The notes below the pieces were generated by a model. It was not told the DNA's origin and did not search any database. It worked only from the letters and a program-made list of their open reading frames with translations. This document shows, in pieces, positions 54,144 through 59,387 of a stretch of DNA of 64,000 nt. The first letter of the stretch is position 1. Every line of letters starts with the position of its first letter. The DNA comes from Paucidesulfovibrio gracilis DSM 16080 (GTDB lineage Bacteria > Desulfobacterota > Desulfovibrionia > Desulfovibrionales > Desulfovibrionaceae), in NCBI RefSeq assembly GCF_900167125.1, contig NZ_FUYC01000006.1, positions 1-64,000 of the forward strand, read 5' to 3'. The translations under genes and the position numbers were made by a program.

Positions 54144-54686
54144 TTATTTTGGGGTCACCAGGCAGACCTTGTCTTCGCTGTCCCGTTCGGCAACGCGCAC
54201 ATCCACATGCTCGTCGCCGTGGGTGACCACATGTTTGCCCACATAATCTGCCTGGATGGGCAGCTCGCGCAGCCCGGCGCGGTCGATGAGCACCAGCAGT
54301 TCCACCCGCCGCGGGCGACCATAGTCCAGCACGGCCTCCAGGGCGGCACGGATGGTGCGGCCGGAGTAGAGCACGTCGTCCACGAGCAGTATGCTGGTGT
54401 TTTCGATGTCGAACGGGATCTCCGTGCGGTTGATGCTGGGCTGGATGTTCAGGGTGGTCCAGTCGTCACGGTAGAGGTTGATGTCCAGCTTGCCCAGGGG
54501 AATGTCGCGGCCCAGGGAGCGGTCCAGGCGTGCCTTGAGCCGCAGAGCCAGGTCCGCGCCGCGCCGCTGGATGCCCAGGAGTACCAGGCGTTCATCGTCG
54601 CCCCGTCGCTCGGAAACTTCGGAAGCCAGGCGTTCCAGGGTGCGTTCCATGTCCCTGGACGAGAGGATGGTGCCGCATTCTTCCAT
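54144..54686 (-). CDS. pyrR: PyrR-type uracil phosphoribosyltransferase / pyrimidine regulator
   Basis: A 180-residue phosphoribosyltransferase. ATG 54686 (MEECGTILSS) follows AAGGGGAAG. PRPP-binding loop: ILLVDDVLYSGRTIRAALEA. Other PyrR marks: LVLLGIQRRGADLALRLKARL and ELPIQADYVGKHVVT. PyrR binds pyr mRNA in Gram-positives; in Deltaproteobacteria its regulatory role is not shown, so uracil salvage is the safe reading. It is followed by a 205-bp gap that holds an inverted repeat (GGAATC/GATTCC near 54037-54085) and no gene. Confidence 0.9.
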   Translation of the reverse strand: MEECGTILSSRDMERTLERLASEVSERRGDDERLVLLGIQRRGADLALRLKARLDRSLGRDIPLGKLDINLYRDDWTTLNIQPSINRTEIPFDIENTSILLVDDVLYSGRTIRAALEAVLDYGRPRRVELLVLIDRAGLRELPIQADYVGKHVVTHGDEHVDVRVAERDSEDKVCLVTPK

Positions 54687-54782
54687 GATCACTTCCCCTT
54701 TTGCAGATGGAAAAAGGTTGTTTTGCGGTGCGGGAAGCAAAATGTCAAATCCGGGCCGCAGGGGGAGCCGGAATGCCGGACA

Positions 54783-55346
54783 TCAGAGATTCGGAACCAG
54801 GCTCCGGCGCACGAATTGGACGGCCTCGGGGTCGAAGTCGCTGTCCATGTCCGGCCAGTAGACCTTGAGCTGCATCACGCCCAGCAGCAGCGCCACCAGG
54901 GTTTTTGCCGTGGGGTCCACGTCCACCTCGCGGATCACGCCCATGTTCATGGAGCGGGTCATGCATTCGGTGAAGAATTCGTGCATGCGTTCGATGACCG
55001 AGGTCATGGATTGCTTGGACGGGGAGAGCAGGGCGTAGGAACTGAGCACGATCTTGAGGTCGGCCAGGTTGTCCGAGGCAAAGCGGACATGGCCGTGCAG
55101 GATGCGCTCAATGGTGCCGTGGTCCCCGTCGCGGGCGGAGCGCAGGGTTTGCAGGAACTCGGAATATTTATCGTCCAGCTCCTGCAGGATTTGCAGGAGA
55201 ATGGCTTCTTTATTTTCAAAGTGCCGGTAGATGGTGCCTTCGGAAATGCCGGCGCGTTTGGCCAGGGCCGCCGTGGTGGTGCCGTGATATCCGATTTCGG
55301 AGATCATGCTCCGGGCGATGTCCAGGATTCTGTCTTTGGTTTTCAT
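54783..55346 (-). CDS. TetR-family transcriptional regulator
   Basis: A 187-residue repressor-type regulator. The N-terminal helix-turn-helix is standard: ILDIARSMISEIGYHGTTTAALAKRAGISEGTIYRHFENKEAILL. The C-terminal ligand domain (YALLSPSKQSMTSVIERM) gives no clue to the effector. ATG 55346 follows GAGGACG. It is divergent from the selenoprotein gene; the interval holds ACCG/CGGT and GTCAA/TTGAC repeats beside a promoter, which may be its operator. Confidence 0.9.
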   Translation of the reverse strand: MKTKDRILDIARSMISEIGYHGTTTAALAKRAGISEGTIYRHFENKEAILLQILQELDDKYSEFLQTLRSARDGDHGTIERILHGHVRFASDNLADLKIVLSSYALLSPSKQSMTSVIERMHEFFTECMTRSMNMGVIREVDVDPTAKTLVALLLGVMQLKVYWPDMDSDFDPEAVQFVRRSLVPNL

Positions 55347-55479
55347 TGCCGTTCGTCCTCGTTGTGAAGCGGGGTGAGTAAGCCCCCGCCGTGGTCGAGG
55401 CAAGGAGTAGCGCACAAGGCATGGCCGGTCAATATCCAGAGGGCGCGGTTTCGCGGCGAACGCTGTTCCGTTGAAGTCA

Positions 55480-55524
55480 ACCGTTTCGGTCGTCATTGAC
55501 AAAGCTGATACGAGTTCTTATTTT
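55480..55524 (+). promoter_or_regulatory. Promoter of the selenoprotein gene with possible TetR operator
   Basis: TTGACA at 55496-55501, a 17-nt spacer, and TATTTT at 55519-55524 form a good sigma-70 promoter. Just upstream, ACCG-TTT-CGGT at 55480-55490 is an inverted repeat, also flanked by GTCAA and TTGAC. The divergent TetR gene makes it a plausible operator. Confidence 0.6.
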
Positions 55525-55555
55525 CCACTCTCAACAGCTATAAGGAGGATCACGA

Positions 55556-55873
55556 ATGATCGAGATTACCGCGGCTGCGAGTCAGCAGCTCGACAACTAT
55601 TTTGAAGGCAAGGATAAGCAACCCATCCGGGTGTACCTTGCCTCCGGCGGTTGAGCTGGTCCAAAGCTCTCATTGGCTCTGGATGAGCCAAACGACAACG
55701 ACGAGAAGTTCGAATCCCAAGGGTATGACGTGCTCATTGAAAAAGAGCTGTTCACCCAGACCGGGGATGTTCGCATCGACATGACCTATTACGGATTCAC
55801 CGTGGATTCCCAGCATCCTGTGGGCGGCGGTGGCTGCTCCGGCGGCTCCTGCTCCACGGGTGGGTGCGGCTGA
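55556..55873 (+). CDS. HesB/IscA-like selenoprotein (in-frame TGA read as selenocysteine)
   Basis: A 105-residue protein from ATG 55556, strongly supported by TAAGGAGGATCACG. Codon 33 (55652-55654) is TGA in VYLASGG-U-AGPKLSLALDE, the site that is Cys in ordinary HesB/IscA-type proteins (SGGCxGP). The same frame continues cleanly through LIEKELFTQTGDVRIDMTYYG to a Gly/Cys-rich tail (CSGGSCSTGGCG) and stops at 55871. A 7-bp hairpin (TTGGCTC/GAGCCAA) begins 18 nt after the TGA, at a position suited to a bacterial SECIS. HesB-like selenoproteins are known from Desulfovibrio and Geobacter. A gene caller that treats TGA as stop splits this gene. Its job is probably in Fe-S or redox metabolism. Confidence 0.85.
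55652..55691 (+). promoter_or_regulatory. TGA (Sec) codon with bacterial SECIS-like hairpin
   Basis: TGA 55652-55654 is followed, 18 nt later, by TTGGCTC, a five-base loop TGGAT, and GAGCCAA. Both arms are perfectly complementary. The loop lies 26 nt past the TGA, within the range used by bacterial SECIS elements, and carries adjacent G residues. Confidence 0.7.
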
Positions 55874-55943
55874 TTCCGACGCGGTCCCTGCACCGAAACG
55901 GTTCGGCAGCAGAAGGTCGCGAATGTATCATAGCCTGAGAAAA

Positions 55944-55979
55944 GGGCGGTCTCCACAAGGAGTGCCGCCCCTTTTTTTG
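55944..55979 (+). terminator. Terminator of the selenoprotein gene
   Basis: GGGCGG with CCGCCC, and CTCC with GGAG inside, a 4-nt loop, then CTTTTTTTG. It ends a monocistronic unit starting at the promoter near 55500. Confidence 0.9.
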
Positions 55980-55992
55980 TTCGCGGCTTCGG

Positions 55993-57270
55993 TCAGGAAT
56001 CGAATTGCCGTTGATCCACAAGTCGGGGACTTTTTTTGTCCAGTCCGCCCGATTCCTGAGTAGCATCCTTTGCCGGGACCGTGATGATCTCCACGGCGGG
56101 CCGCAGTTTGCAGCACTCCTGAAAAGCCTGGGCAAATTTGCCCCGGTCCAGTTCCTCGGCATCGGGCCGTAGTTGGAGGCGGCAGGTCAGGGTGTCGCGC
56201 CCATCCGGATTGGCCACAACAAGTTGCCAGCAGTCGATTTCCTCGAATTGTTCCATGACGGTGGAGGCTTGGTCCGGGTAGAGAAACTGGCCTTTGACCT
56301 TGGCTGTGTCGTCCACGCGGCCCAGCCAGCCTTCCAGACGAAAGCTCGTGCGGCCGCAGGCGCAAGGCTCTTCCATCACGCGGGACAGATCGCCCGTGGC
56401 CAAGCGGATCAGGGGATATTCCCCGGTAAAGGGTGTGACCACCACTTCGCCCATTTCTCCAGGAGGCAGGGGCTGCCCCGTACCTGGATCGCAGATTTCC
56501 ACCAGGGCGCGGGACGAGAGGTGCATGCCTTCGGCCTGATCGCACTCATAGGCGATGCAGCCCACGTCCGCCGTACCATACCCCTGCCGGACCGTAACGC
56601 CGAATGTTTCCTCCACCTCGGTGCGCAAGGAGCGGGTGAGTTTTTCCGCAGCCACGAACGCGGTCCGCAGGGAAAAGTCCCGCCGGGGATCCAGCCCCCG
56701 GGCCACGGCCTTGCGTCCAATGGTGCGCAAAAAGCTGGCCATGCCCACAAACCCGGTCACGGGCAGCCGGGTCATTATGTCGATTTGTGTCCGGGTCTGG
56801 CCCGGGCCTGCCGGGATCACAGCGCAGCCGATGTCCCGTAGCGGCTCCTCCAGCATCAGCCCTGCCGGGGTGAGATGGTAGGAAAAGGTCATCTGCACCA
56901 CGTCCCGGGGCCGGAAGCCCGCGGCATAAAAGGCCTCAGCCCATCCCCAATAGTCTGAATCCGCTCCTTCCGGGTCAAGGATGGGACCAGGGGATTGGTA
57001 GATATGCCGCAGTTCGCCCAGTTCACGGGTGAGCATCCAATCCAGCCCGTGTTCGGCCTGGAGCCGGATGATATCTTTTTTCCGCAGGGGCGGTATGGCC
57101 GCAAACCCTTCCGGGGTGCGGACATCCTTTTCCGACAGACCGGCGTCGTTCATGCGGGTTTTGAATTCGTTGGAAAACAGCCAGGCCTTTTCCAGCAGGG
57201 TATGCAGGGCGCGCCATTTGCGCTTGCGTCGCCGTTCCGGTGATTCGGTTTCCAGGTCGTGGTAGTACAT
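55993..57270 (-). CDS. Phenylacetate-CoA ligase-like AMP-binding protein
   Basis: A 425-residue adenylate-forming enzyme of the PaaK type. ATG 57270 follows CGAGGGAGGACC. Features: LLEKAWLFSNEFKTRM and IPPLRKKDIIRLQ at the start, TFSYHLTPAG, VRQGYGTADVGCIAYEC (adenylate-binding block), IRLATGDLSRVMEEPCACGRTSF and GRVDDTAKVKGQFLYPDQ. It should activate an aromatic or similar acid as acyl-AMP and then acyl-CoA. The typical N-terminal P-loop SSGTTG is not visible, so activity may differ. No partner oxidoreductase (Ior-type) is adjacent. Confidence 0.8.
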   Translation of the reverse strand: MYYHDLETESPERRRKRKWRALHTLLEKAWLFSNEFKTRMNDAGLSEKDVRTPEGFAAIPPLRKKDIIRLQAEHGLDWMLTRELGELRHIYQSPGPILDPEGADSDYWGWAEAFYAAGFRPRDVVQMTFSYHLTPAGLMLEEPLRDIGCAVIPAGPGQTRTQIDIMTRLPVTGFVGMASFLRTIGRKAVARGLDPRRDFSLRTAFVAAEKLTRSLRTEVEETFGVTVRQGYGTADVGCIAYECDQAEGMHLSSRALVEICDPGTGQPLPPGEMGEVVVTPFTGEYPLIRLATGDLSRVMEEPCACGRTSFRLEGWLGRVDDTAKVKGQFLYPDQASTVMEQFEEIDCWQLVVANPDGRDTLTCRLQLRPDAEELDRGKFAQAFQECCKLRPAVEIITVPAKDATQESGGLDKKSPRLVDQRQFDS

Positions 57271-57392: not shown

Positions 57393-59105
57393 TCAAATCA
57401 GGAAGGATATGAACGAATAGCCGGATATATCCAGCTGTTTCACTTCCTTGGCGAATTTGGAAAAGATGAGCATGCCCAGCTGCTGCATTTCCTCGGGCCG
57501 GGCGCTGAAAAAGTGTTCCGGCACGGCGAAGTTGTTCACATCGTCAATGGCGTGGCCGCACACGGCTTCGGTAAAGATGCCCTGTTCGGTCTTGCTGACC
57601 CGGAAGGTCAGGGAGCGCTGTTTGTCGCCGTTGCCGCTGCTGATCATGTGGCAAAACACTTCCTCGCAACACAGGATCAGCGTATTCAGCTTTTGGGAGT
57701 CGAGATCCAGCTTGCGCTGGTTTTCAGTGAGGATTTTATGGAGCTTGGGCAATTCCGCAAGCTCGGCCTTGAGTGTACCCTGCACGGATTTTTTGGGCAT
57801 GAAGTAGGCCAGGGCGCTGAGCAGGAACGCGGTGAATCCGCCCACGGCCACGCTGTTTTGCAGGAGCGGGGCCAGGGCTTCGGGGACGGCGTTGCCAAAG
57901 TAGGTTCCGCTTTCCGCCACCAGGCCCATGGTCAGGGAAAGGCCCAGGATGATGCCGTGCTGGTTGCTGAGTTTATTCACGCGGACCAGGCCGAATCCGG
58001 CATGAAAGAGCAGGGACGCGATGACGATGAGAAAGCCGCCCAGCACCGGGCCGGGCATGTCCAGAATGAATCCGCCCGCCTTGGGCAGAAAAGCCAGCAC
58101 AAACAGAATGGCCGCGCCGAAAACGCCGATGCGCCGGGAGGCCACGCCCGTTATTTCGATCAAGGGCAGGTTGTCGCAGTAGATGGACGGCACGGGCGCA
58201 CCGAGCAGACCACAGGCCACCTTGCTGAGACCGTCGCAATACAGCCCGCCCTGGATCACGTCGTAGGATACGCGGCGGAAATTGCGCTGGGAGATTTGTT
58301 GCACAAGCATGATGTTGCCCGTGCTTTCGATCATGCTGGCGAGCATGGCCATGCCAAAGGCCAGGATCAGCGGAACGTGCAGGCCCGAGATGTTGGTTTC
58401 GATGCCGGGCCAGACCATGGGCGGCAGGCCGAACCAGGGCGCGGCCATGGTGTGGGTGAAGTGCAGTTGCCCGAAGAGTGCGGATGTGATGTATCCGCCG
58501 GCCAGGGCGATGACCGGACTCCAGAGCTTGAAGGTCACGTTGCCGAAGAGCATGAACACGGTGAGCAGCAGCGCGGTCACGCCGCCGATGCCGAGTTTGA
58601 CCAGGGTCAGATCCGGGGTTGTTTTGCCGGTTCCGGCCCAGATTTCCAGGCCAATGGGTACCAGGGAAACTGCGATGAGCAGGATGACCACGCCCCCGAT
58701 GGCCGGGGTGATGATGTGGCGAAAAAACCGGATGAAAAACGTATACAGAAAAATGATGGGTACCGTGAGCAGGGTCATGGTGGCCACCAGTTCCACGCCG
58801 CCCATCTTGACCGCGTCCAGGGTGCAGATCAAAAAGGCGCTGTAGGAACCGGTGAACAGGATGAAGCCCGTGCCGATGCCGAATGGACGTCGGCTCTGGA
58901 GAAACGTGAAGATGGAGGCCGTGATCAGCGTGCCGAAGGTGATGAAGCGCAGCGTGTCCCCGGCAATGAGCTGTGATTTGCCCAATACGTTGGGAATGAA
59001 GAGAATGCCGTCAAAGATGATCAGAACATGGATCAGGGCCAGGGCCAAGCAAAGCGGAAGCGGCGGCGATTCAGCGGCCTCGTAGCGCAATTGGTCGTTG
59101 GACAT
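57393..59105 (-). CDS. NCS2/xanthine-uracil-type permease with C-terminal cytoplasmic domain
   Basis: A 570-residue membrane protein. ATG 59105 (MSNDQLRYE) is chosen; a longer frame begins at TTG. About 12-14 hydrophobic segments follow (FGTLITASIFTFLQ, ITPAIGGVVILLIAVSLVPIG), with the nucleobase-transporter core (LAFGMAMLASMIESTGNIMLVQQ). Purine or pyrimidine uptake is likely. After the last membrane helix a 110-residue cytoplasmic tail (LNTLILCCEEVFCHMISSGNG ... LGMLIFSKFAKEVKQLDISG) resembles the HATPase fold of RsbW-type anti-sigma factors. This fusion is uncommon. Confidence 0.78.
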   Translation of the reverse strand: MSNDQLRYEAAESPPLPLCLALALIHVLIIFDGILFIPNVLGKSQLIAGDTLRFITFGTLITASIFTFLQSRRPFGIGTGFILFTGSYSAFLICTLDAVKMGGVELVATMTLLTVPIIFLYTFFIRFFRHIITPAIGGVVILLIAVSLVPIGLEIWAGTGKTTPDLTLVKLGIGGVTALLLTVFMLFGNVTFKLWSPVIALAGGYITSALFGQLHFTHTMAAPWFGLPPMVWPGIETNISGLHVPLILAFGMAMLASMIESTGNIMLVQQISQRNFRRVSYDVIQGGLYCDGLSKVACGLLGAPVPSIYCDNLPLIEITGVASRRIGVFGAAILFVLAFLPKAGGFILDMPGPVLGGFLIVIASLLFHAGFGLVRVNKLSNQHGIILGLSLTMGLVAESGTYFGNAVPEALAPLLQNSVAVGGFTAFLLSALAYFMPKKSVQGTLKAELAELPKLHKILTENQRKLDLDSQKLNTLILCCEEVFCHMISSGNGDKQRSLTFRVSKTEQGIFTEAVCGHAIDDVNNFAVPEHFFSARPEEMQQLGMLIFSKFAKEVKQLDISGYSFISFLI

Positions 59106-59387
59106 GGTGGCGACATTCCCCAGGGTTGCATGTGGAGGAAACAATCTCTTGTAGGGGAATGTGTGGATTTGCGCAAACTGTTTGGTGGAACACGGACCCT
59201 AGTACGGATCATGGCGGACTGTTGCGCTGGGGGATGCTACTGCTGCACTGGTTGCCGTGCCGTACGGCATTTCGTCTGTGTTTCGTGCTCTTGCGACGGC
59301 GCTGCAATCGCATAAAATGCGGTATTGTTATCTTTTGTAACGCATTGGAGTGCGTTTCCCGTTGCGGCGTGGTGTGGGATGGATGTG

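Follow-up and report, generated by a model that had tools for sequence, protein, structure and literature searches.

The 64,000-nucleotide stretch of Paucidesulfovibrio gracilis DNA analyzed here (the window) contains a genuine gene at 55556–55873. We assign its product with high confidence, from sequence comparison, to the IscA/HesB (A-type) family as a selenoprotein in which the UGA at codon 33 would be decoded as selenocysteine (Sec). The family has already been described and has its own NCBIfam model, so that the gene itself is a sound but ordinary addition; the less expected part is the evolutionary side, in which Sec and Cys copies are neighbors and the Sec copies are spread over more than one clade.

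An open reading frame interrupted by an in-frame TGA

All features of the gene lie on the + strand. The frame at 55556–55873 holds one internal TGA, at 55652–55654, which is very probably read as selenocysteine. Translation with TGA as Sec (U) yields a single protein of 105 residues ending at the TGA stop at 55871–55873, as had been proposed in an earlier reading made from the letters of the DNA (the sequence-only reading). U33 is found within SGGUAGP, at the site where IscA/HesB proteins have their first conserved Cys. The standard code gives what that reading had expected of a standard annotation: in the mechanical ORF list, this frame has a sole ORF past the TGA, of 66 amino acids, which starts from the TTG at 55673.

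The Shine–Dalgarno sequence AAGGAGG (55542–55548), read directly from the sequence 7 nt 5' of the ATG, agrees with the strong ribosome binding site that had been claimed. A predicted sigma-70-like promoter, TTGACA-17-TATTTT, is located at 55496–55524; it had been called perfect, but it matches the consensus at 10 of 12 positions. Downstream of the gene, a hairpin followed by a T run is predicted at 55937–55978. While the computed fold of 55936–55982 (−24.1 kcal/mol) is in keeping with the proposed terminator, a consensus scan for terminators reported 0 terminator-like sites, including none at 55937–55978.

The read-through protein is related to IscA and HesB

The read-through protein scored 119.3 bits against NF038090 (IscA_HesB_Se, NCBIfam; cut-off 85), with the match covering model positions 1–101 of 101, which bears out the suggested relation to HesB-like selenoproteins. 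It also exceeded the cut-off of PF01521 (36.4 versus 26.3 bits), whereas the sister model TIGR01911 (HesB_rel_seleno), to which it is accordingly not assigned, gave 37 bits, under its cut-off of 66.35, and the scores fell below the cut-offs of all the IscA, SufA, and ErpA models of NCBIfam. The UxGP motif is present as U33-A-G-P. A profile of 30 rows retrieved IscA-type structures, and its alignments to PDB 1nwb and 2apn placed Sec33 on the Cys of GGCSG, the first Fe–S-binding Cys to which SGG-U-AGP had been assigned in the sequence-only reading.

The predicted structure is an IscA fold, with a mean pLDDT of 84.6 and values under 50 for residues 92–103. Among the chains ranked highest by Foldseek, the best PDB matches were IscA 1s98 (Z 11.7, rmsd 2.8, 90 aligned), IscA 1x0g (Z 11.6), and SufA 2d2a (Z 10.5); they share 17–25% identity with the protein, and the fold extends over residues 1–93 at most.

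The A-type carriers IscA, SufA, and ErpA have two C-terminal cysteines arranged as C-x-C. The read-through protein has the A-type fold, as predicted, and a PF01521 score above the cut-off, but its Gly/Cys-rich tail, GGGGCSGGSCSTGGCG (residues 90–105, 55823–55870), shows C-x4-C spacing. The tail contains C94, C99, and C104, and the claimed CxxxxC pairs are thus present as C94-x4-C99-x4-C104. Because C-x-C is absent, and the NCBIfam cut-offs for IscA, SufA, and ErpA are also missed, the protein is filed from its sequence as IscA/HesB-like and not as IscA, SufA, or ErpA. Among relatives, the tail is long and variable, without a fixed C-x-C. In several relatives the C terminus is CSC or CGC, and C99 and C104 are invariant across the 30 aligned rows.

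With regard to function, we lean toward a protein that binds iron or an Fe–S cluster and hands it on, with a selenolate replacing a thiolate. Sec33 would correspond to the first conserved Cys of IscA-type proteins, and cysteines in the flexible tail, rich in Gly and Cys, would most likely supply the further ligands; together they would bind iron or the cluster and then pass it onward. It is possible, though we are inclined to doubt it, that the IscA-fold selenoprotein performs work other than Fe–S transfer, such as a selenol redox or metal-binding role with the Cys-rich tail as a partner. The long, variable tail with no fixed C-x-C would suit such a role, and according to the accessible part of a review, many prokaryotic selenoproteins are thiol-oxidoreductase-like or have redox-like motifs (PMC13188914). 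Likewise, the accessible text of PMC11097638 describes the Methanococcus maripaludis HesB-like selenoprotein as one whose role is unclear. However, the profile and the fold match A-type carriers, among them the IscA with a bound [2Fe-2S] cluster, and the invariance of C99 and C104 also argues for the carrier function that we favor.

The genome encodes the selenocysteine machinery, and relatives retain the TGA

The sequence-only reading had pointed to selABCD, and all four genes were found in the genome: selA (C3:136566–137924, 583.9 bits), selB (C3:139566–141452, 367.5 bits), the tRNA-Sec gene selC (C3:235830–235919, 81.9 bits), and selD (C17, 328.7 bits). The tRNA-Sec cut-off of 47 bits was passed at three places (81.9, 48.7, and 47.1 bits). 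ARAGORN, applied to the best-scoring place, returned the anticodon tca, and the two narrow matches are probably ordinary tRNAs. The selD gene (L030, G000:C17:44973–45899) has an in-frame TGA of its own at codon 15, which makes it a candidate for the second selenoprotein of this genome.

One protein search provided 17 named loci, 13 of which are titled Desulfovibrio, Pseudodesulfovibrio, or Desulfovibrionaceae. The TGA is present at the aligned codon, with the frame open on both sides, in 17/17. Across the order, NF038090 matched in 284 of 297 genomes (262 over the cut-off) and selA in 249 (246 over the cut-off). The matches listed set a minimum for the TGA copies of each genome. Among them, at least 102 genomes have a copy with a single TGA, and 99 of those 102 have a selA match; the three that lack one (G222, G266, and G287) have completeness values of 93, 86, and 81%, respectively. 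Conversely, eight genomes among the matches listed have a stop-free copy and no selA, and seven of these eight show no TGA copy.

A SECIS-like hairpin is conserved after the TGA

A perfect 7-bp hairpin, TTGGCTC-TGGAT-GAGCCAA (55673–55691), starts 18 nt past the TGA, as the sequence-only reading had stated, although only the inner five of its seven pairs are conserved. This 5-bp core (55675–55679 with 55685–55689) starts 20 nt past the TGA and encloses the loop TGGAT, with G at loop position 2. Among TGA triplets in any frame, a perfect 7-bp hairpin (loop 3–8) that starts 12–25 nt downstream follows 7 of 832 on the window's + strand and 6 of 771 on its − strand, and the 7-bp hairpin alone is therefore weak evidence.

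We compared Sec and Cys copies in 70 distinct rows (45 Sec and 25 Cys) kept from 71 found with a motif that misses the genome's own Cys copy (L063), the C-C-G-P Cys copies, and the Cys copy of L050. The hairpin code GCTCTGGAYGAG is present in 45/45 Sec copies versus 1/25 Cys copies, and the five inner pairs can likewise form in 45/45 and 1/25, respectively. The residues A-L-D-E are found in 22 of the 25 Cys copies, which makes the peptide that follows the site almost identical to that of the Sec copies, and the Cys copies thus serve as a control for protein constraint. That GCTCTGGAYGAG is fixed in Sec copies and rare in Cys copies is as would be expected of a SECIS element under selection. 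Bacterial SECIS elements are described in PMC1088965, in its accessible part, as a stem-loop 3' of the UGA whose small apical loop contains a G; the core loop is UGGAY in 45/45 Sec copies.

The conservation in orthologues on which the sequence-only reading had staked its hairpin was therefore found for the core. The core is nearly invariant, and covariation is accordingly slight: both-side changes occur in 3/45 sequences, all at a single pair (GC:42, AU:2, UA:1). Among 500 shuffles, none reached the observed count of both-side-change cells, and 64 reached the count of one such pair. RNAalifold applied to the Sec copies selects exactly the 5-bp core, while the outer two pairs of the 7-bp stem hold in 20/45 and 32/45 of them. 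Folding of the stretch after the TGA, the check suggested earlier, gave a divided answer, because the hairpin is present but the minimum-energy fold of the 45 nt in the window is a different, longer structure (−17.6 kcal/mol, z −3.3). A longer SECIS based on this 45-nt fold, in which the UGA region pairs with the 3' arm, was considered and dropped for the 5-bp core, as the 45 Sec copies showed no both-side changes in it and no excess over shuffles. An Rfam search of the window at gathering scores gave no match.

Hairpin-directed decoding of the UGA by SelB is strongly supported by these comparisons of sequence. SelB carrying Sec-tRNA-Sec would decode the UGA at codon 33 as selenocysteine, directed by the hairpin inside the coding sequence, and read-through would depend on selB and on the codon choice in GCTCTGGATGAG. 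Were the TGA a true stop, in a decayed Cys gene or through a sequencing error, only the 66-residue piece from the TTG at 55673, or nothing, would be made; the standard code does yield that ORF, and a stop-free Cys paralogue in the same genome (G000:C14:3917–4207) could render the TGA copy dispensable. We consider this very improbable, given the TGA and the open frame on either side of it in 17/17 named relatives, the hairpin code in 45/45 Sec copies, and the presence of the sel genes. The origin of the TGA as a frameshift or pseudogene of a Cys version, which the sequence-only reading had named as evidence against itself, does not fit either, because the Cys versions are separate, intact copies and 24/25 of them lack the hairpin code. 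A reading of the TGA as Cys or Trp through a suppressor or a changed code, to which the Cys at this site in paralogues might point, can be set aside almost entirely in view of selA, selB, selD, and a tRNA-Sec with anticodon tca in the genome and a hairpin code invariant among TGA copies and seldom seen in Cys copies.

Sec and Cys copies are frequently adjacent

At least 31 of the 54 distinct loci compared (L010–L026, L032–L061, and L064–L070) have a Sec and a Cys copy next to each other on one strand, in either order. Of these loci, L032–L061 are the best-scoring NF038090 matches and not a random sample, and flanks are short. The count derives from 32 fetched loci with a pair, L071 being a repeat of L032, and an extra pair in L050 was missed by the twin-count motif. 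Sec/Cys twins are located in L013, L016, L018, L019, L021, L024, L032–L039, L042–L046, L048–L053, L055–L060, and L070. A limited literature search, in sources accessible in part, returned no description of Sec/Cys HesB twins lying next to each other, and we do not claim that they are absent from print.

In a tree of 83 copies (44 Sec and 39 Cys), the Sec/Cys label changes at least 14 times, with five changes forced by well-supported branches. A reduced tree of 78 copies, from which four long-branch rows, L063, and the repeat locus L071 were removed, has 10 label changes, five of them forced. A single clade of Sec copies was rejected on the 78 copies (log-likelihood 159 lower, p-AU 2e-46); this p value presumes a group named beforehand, and the label is the codon itself, but the test followed sight of the first tree. 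The label changes may reflect Cys twins that arose anew repeatedly or neighbors that exchange sequence by gene conversion, either of which could give the same pattern. The rows are short (89 columns) and many forks are open, and 89 columns are too few to tell these two apart. In several pairs, the top-scoring Sec relative of the Cys copy is in another genome and is not its neighbor, so that not every pair is young.

The genome of the window has a Cys copy on another contig (G000:C14:3917–4207, 88.8 bits against NF038090, no stop), in which QSCSGAS replaces GGUAGP (L063:1501–1836) and which is unlinked to the Sec copy. PF01521 has a single match in the genome, but the notion that the selenoprotein is its only A-type protein was rejected because NF038090 detects this second copy.

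Of 297 genomes searched for the pattern of Cys plus hairpin code, 8 gave a total of eight places. Five of these eight Cys copies (L065, L066, L067, L068, and L071) retain the ability to form the five inner pairs, and three of the five genomes concerned (G158, G204, and G292) have no selA match. Judging by their sequences, the hairpin-forming Cys copies look as if they had once been selenoproteins. Vestiges of SECIS-like structures had been noted in Cys homologues in 2006 (PMC1794560, accessible part), where a figure legend gives a HesB-like example. We suggest, tentatively, that in this order the Sec form repeatedly generates, or trades sequence with, an adjacent Cys twin, and that cells employ either the selenium or the sulfur version of the carrier according to selenium or redox conditions. 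Most Cys twins lack the SECIS code, and on this view the pairs would constitute a natural series of SECIS decay.

Genomic neighborhood

In the window, genes for a phosphoribosyltransferase and an AMP-binding ligase flank the selenoprotein gene (54144–57270). Relatives of the phosphoribosyltransferase (PF00156) were found within the fetched stretch in at least 16/17 named loci and relatives of the ligase (PF00501) in at least 11/17; these counts, and the one that follows, are lower bounds, as some loci end early. A TetR relative was found in at least 3/17 (L010, L016, and L022), adjoining the selenoprotein gene in each. The divergent TetR gene had been put forward as a possible regulator, but a general role of this kind is unsupported, with a TetR relative found beside the selenoprotein gene in 3/17 named loci, and TetR is a local neighbor that is not widely conserved. 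Further downstream, 57393–59144 encodes a xanthine/uracil-type permease with PF00860 over residues 34–409 of 583; its C-terminal residues beyond 409 matched no Pfam model at E 0.001.

Discussion

Read-through corrects a gene that the standard code would otherwise cut to 66 residues. In addition, the Sec and Cys copies offer a control for SECIS function that is both natural and clean, because almost one and the same peptide is encoded by frozen codons where the site is TGA and by freer ones where it is Cys. If the Sec and Cys forms work differently, the paired genes would allow a test, in one cell, of what selenium contributes to an Fe–S carrier.

Comparing the protein with IscA and SufA (1s98, 1x0g, and 2d2a), the same fold is found (Z 10.5 to 11.7) at 17–25% identity, and the first Cys has the same position when the profile is aligned to 1nwb and 2apn. 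However, these proteins have Cys where the window protein would have Sec, and IscA has a C-terminal C-x-C, whereas the window protein has a longer Gly/Cys-rich tail instead.

The HesB-like selenoprotein of M. maripaludis is likewise an IscA-related selenoprotein. As stated in the accessible text of PMC11097638, it was identified earlier by mutagenesis and 75Se labeling, and nitrogen fixation persisted in a disruption mutant. This protein is archaeal, and archaeal SECIS elements are mostly in the 3' untranslated region (PMC9312934, accessible part), whereas the SECIS-like hairpin described here is inside the coding sequence.

HesB-like selenoproteins of bacteria were listed in 2006, with entries for D. 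vulgaris and D. desulfuricans (PMC1794560), and Desulfovibrio vulgaris DVU_1382 was listed as 'HesB family, TGA' in 2007 (PMC1914089). A review lists the UxGP motif for them (PMC13188914), and TIGR01911 is the model given in two reviews; all these sources were accessible in part. Although the cut-off of this sister model is missed, we found no feature that would place the window protein outside the bacterial HesB-like selenoproteins (NF038090). It shares with them the predicted Sec at the first conserved Cys within UxGP (here UAGP), the same small IscA fold, and a SECIS-like hairpin after the UGA.
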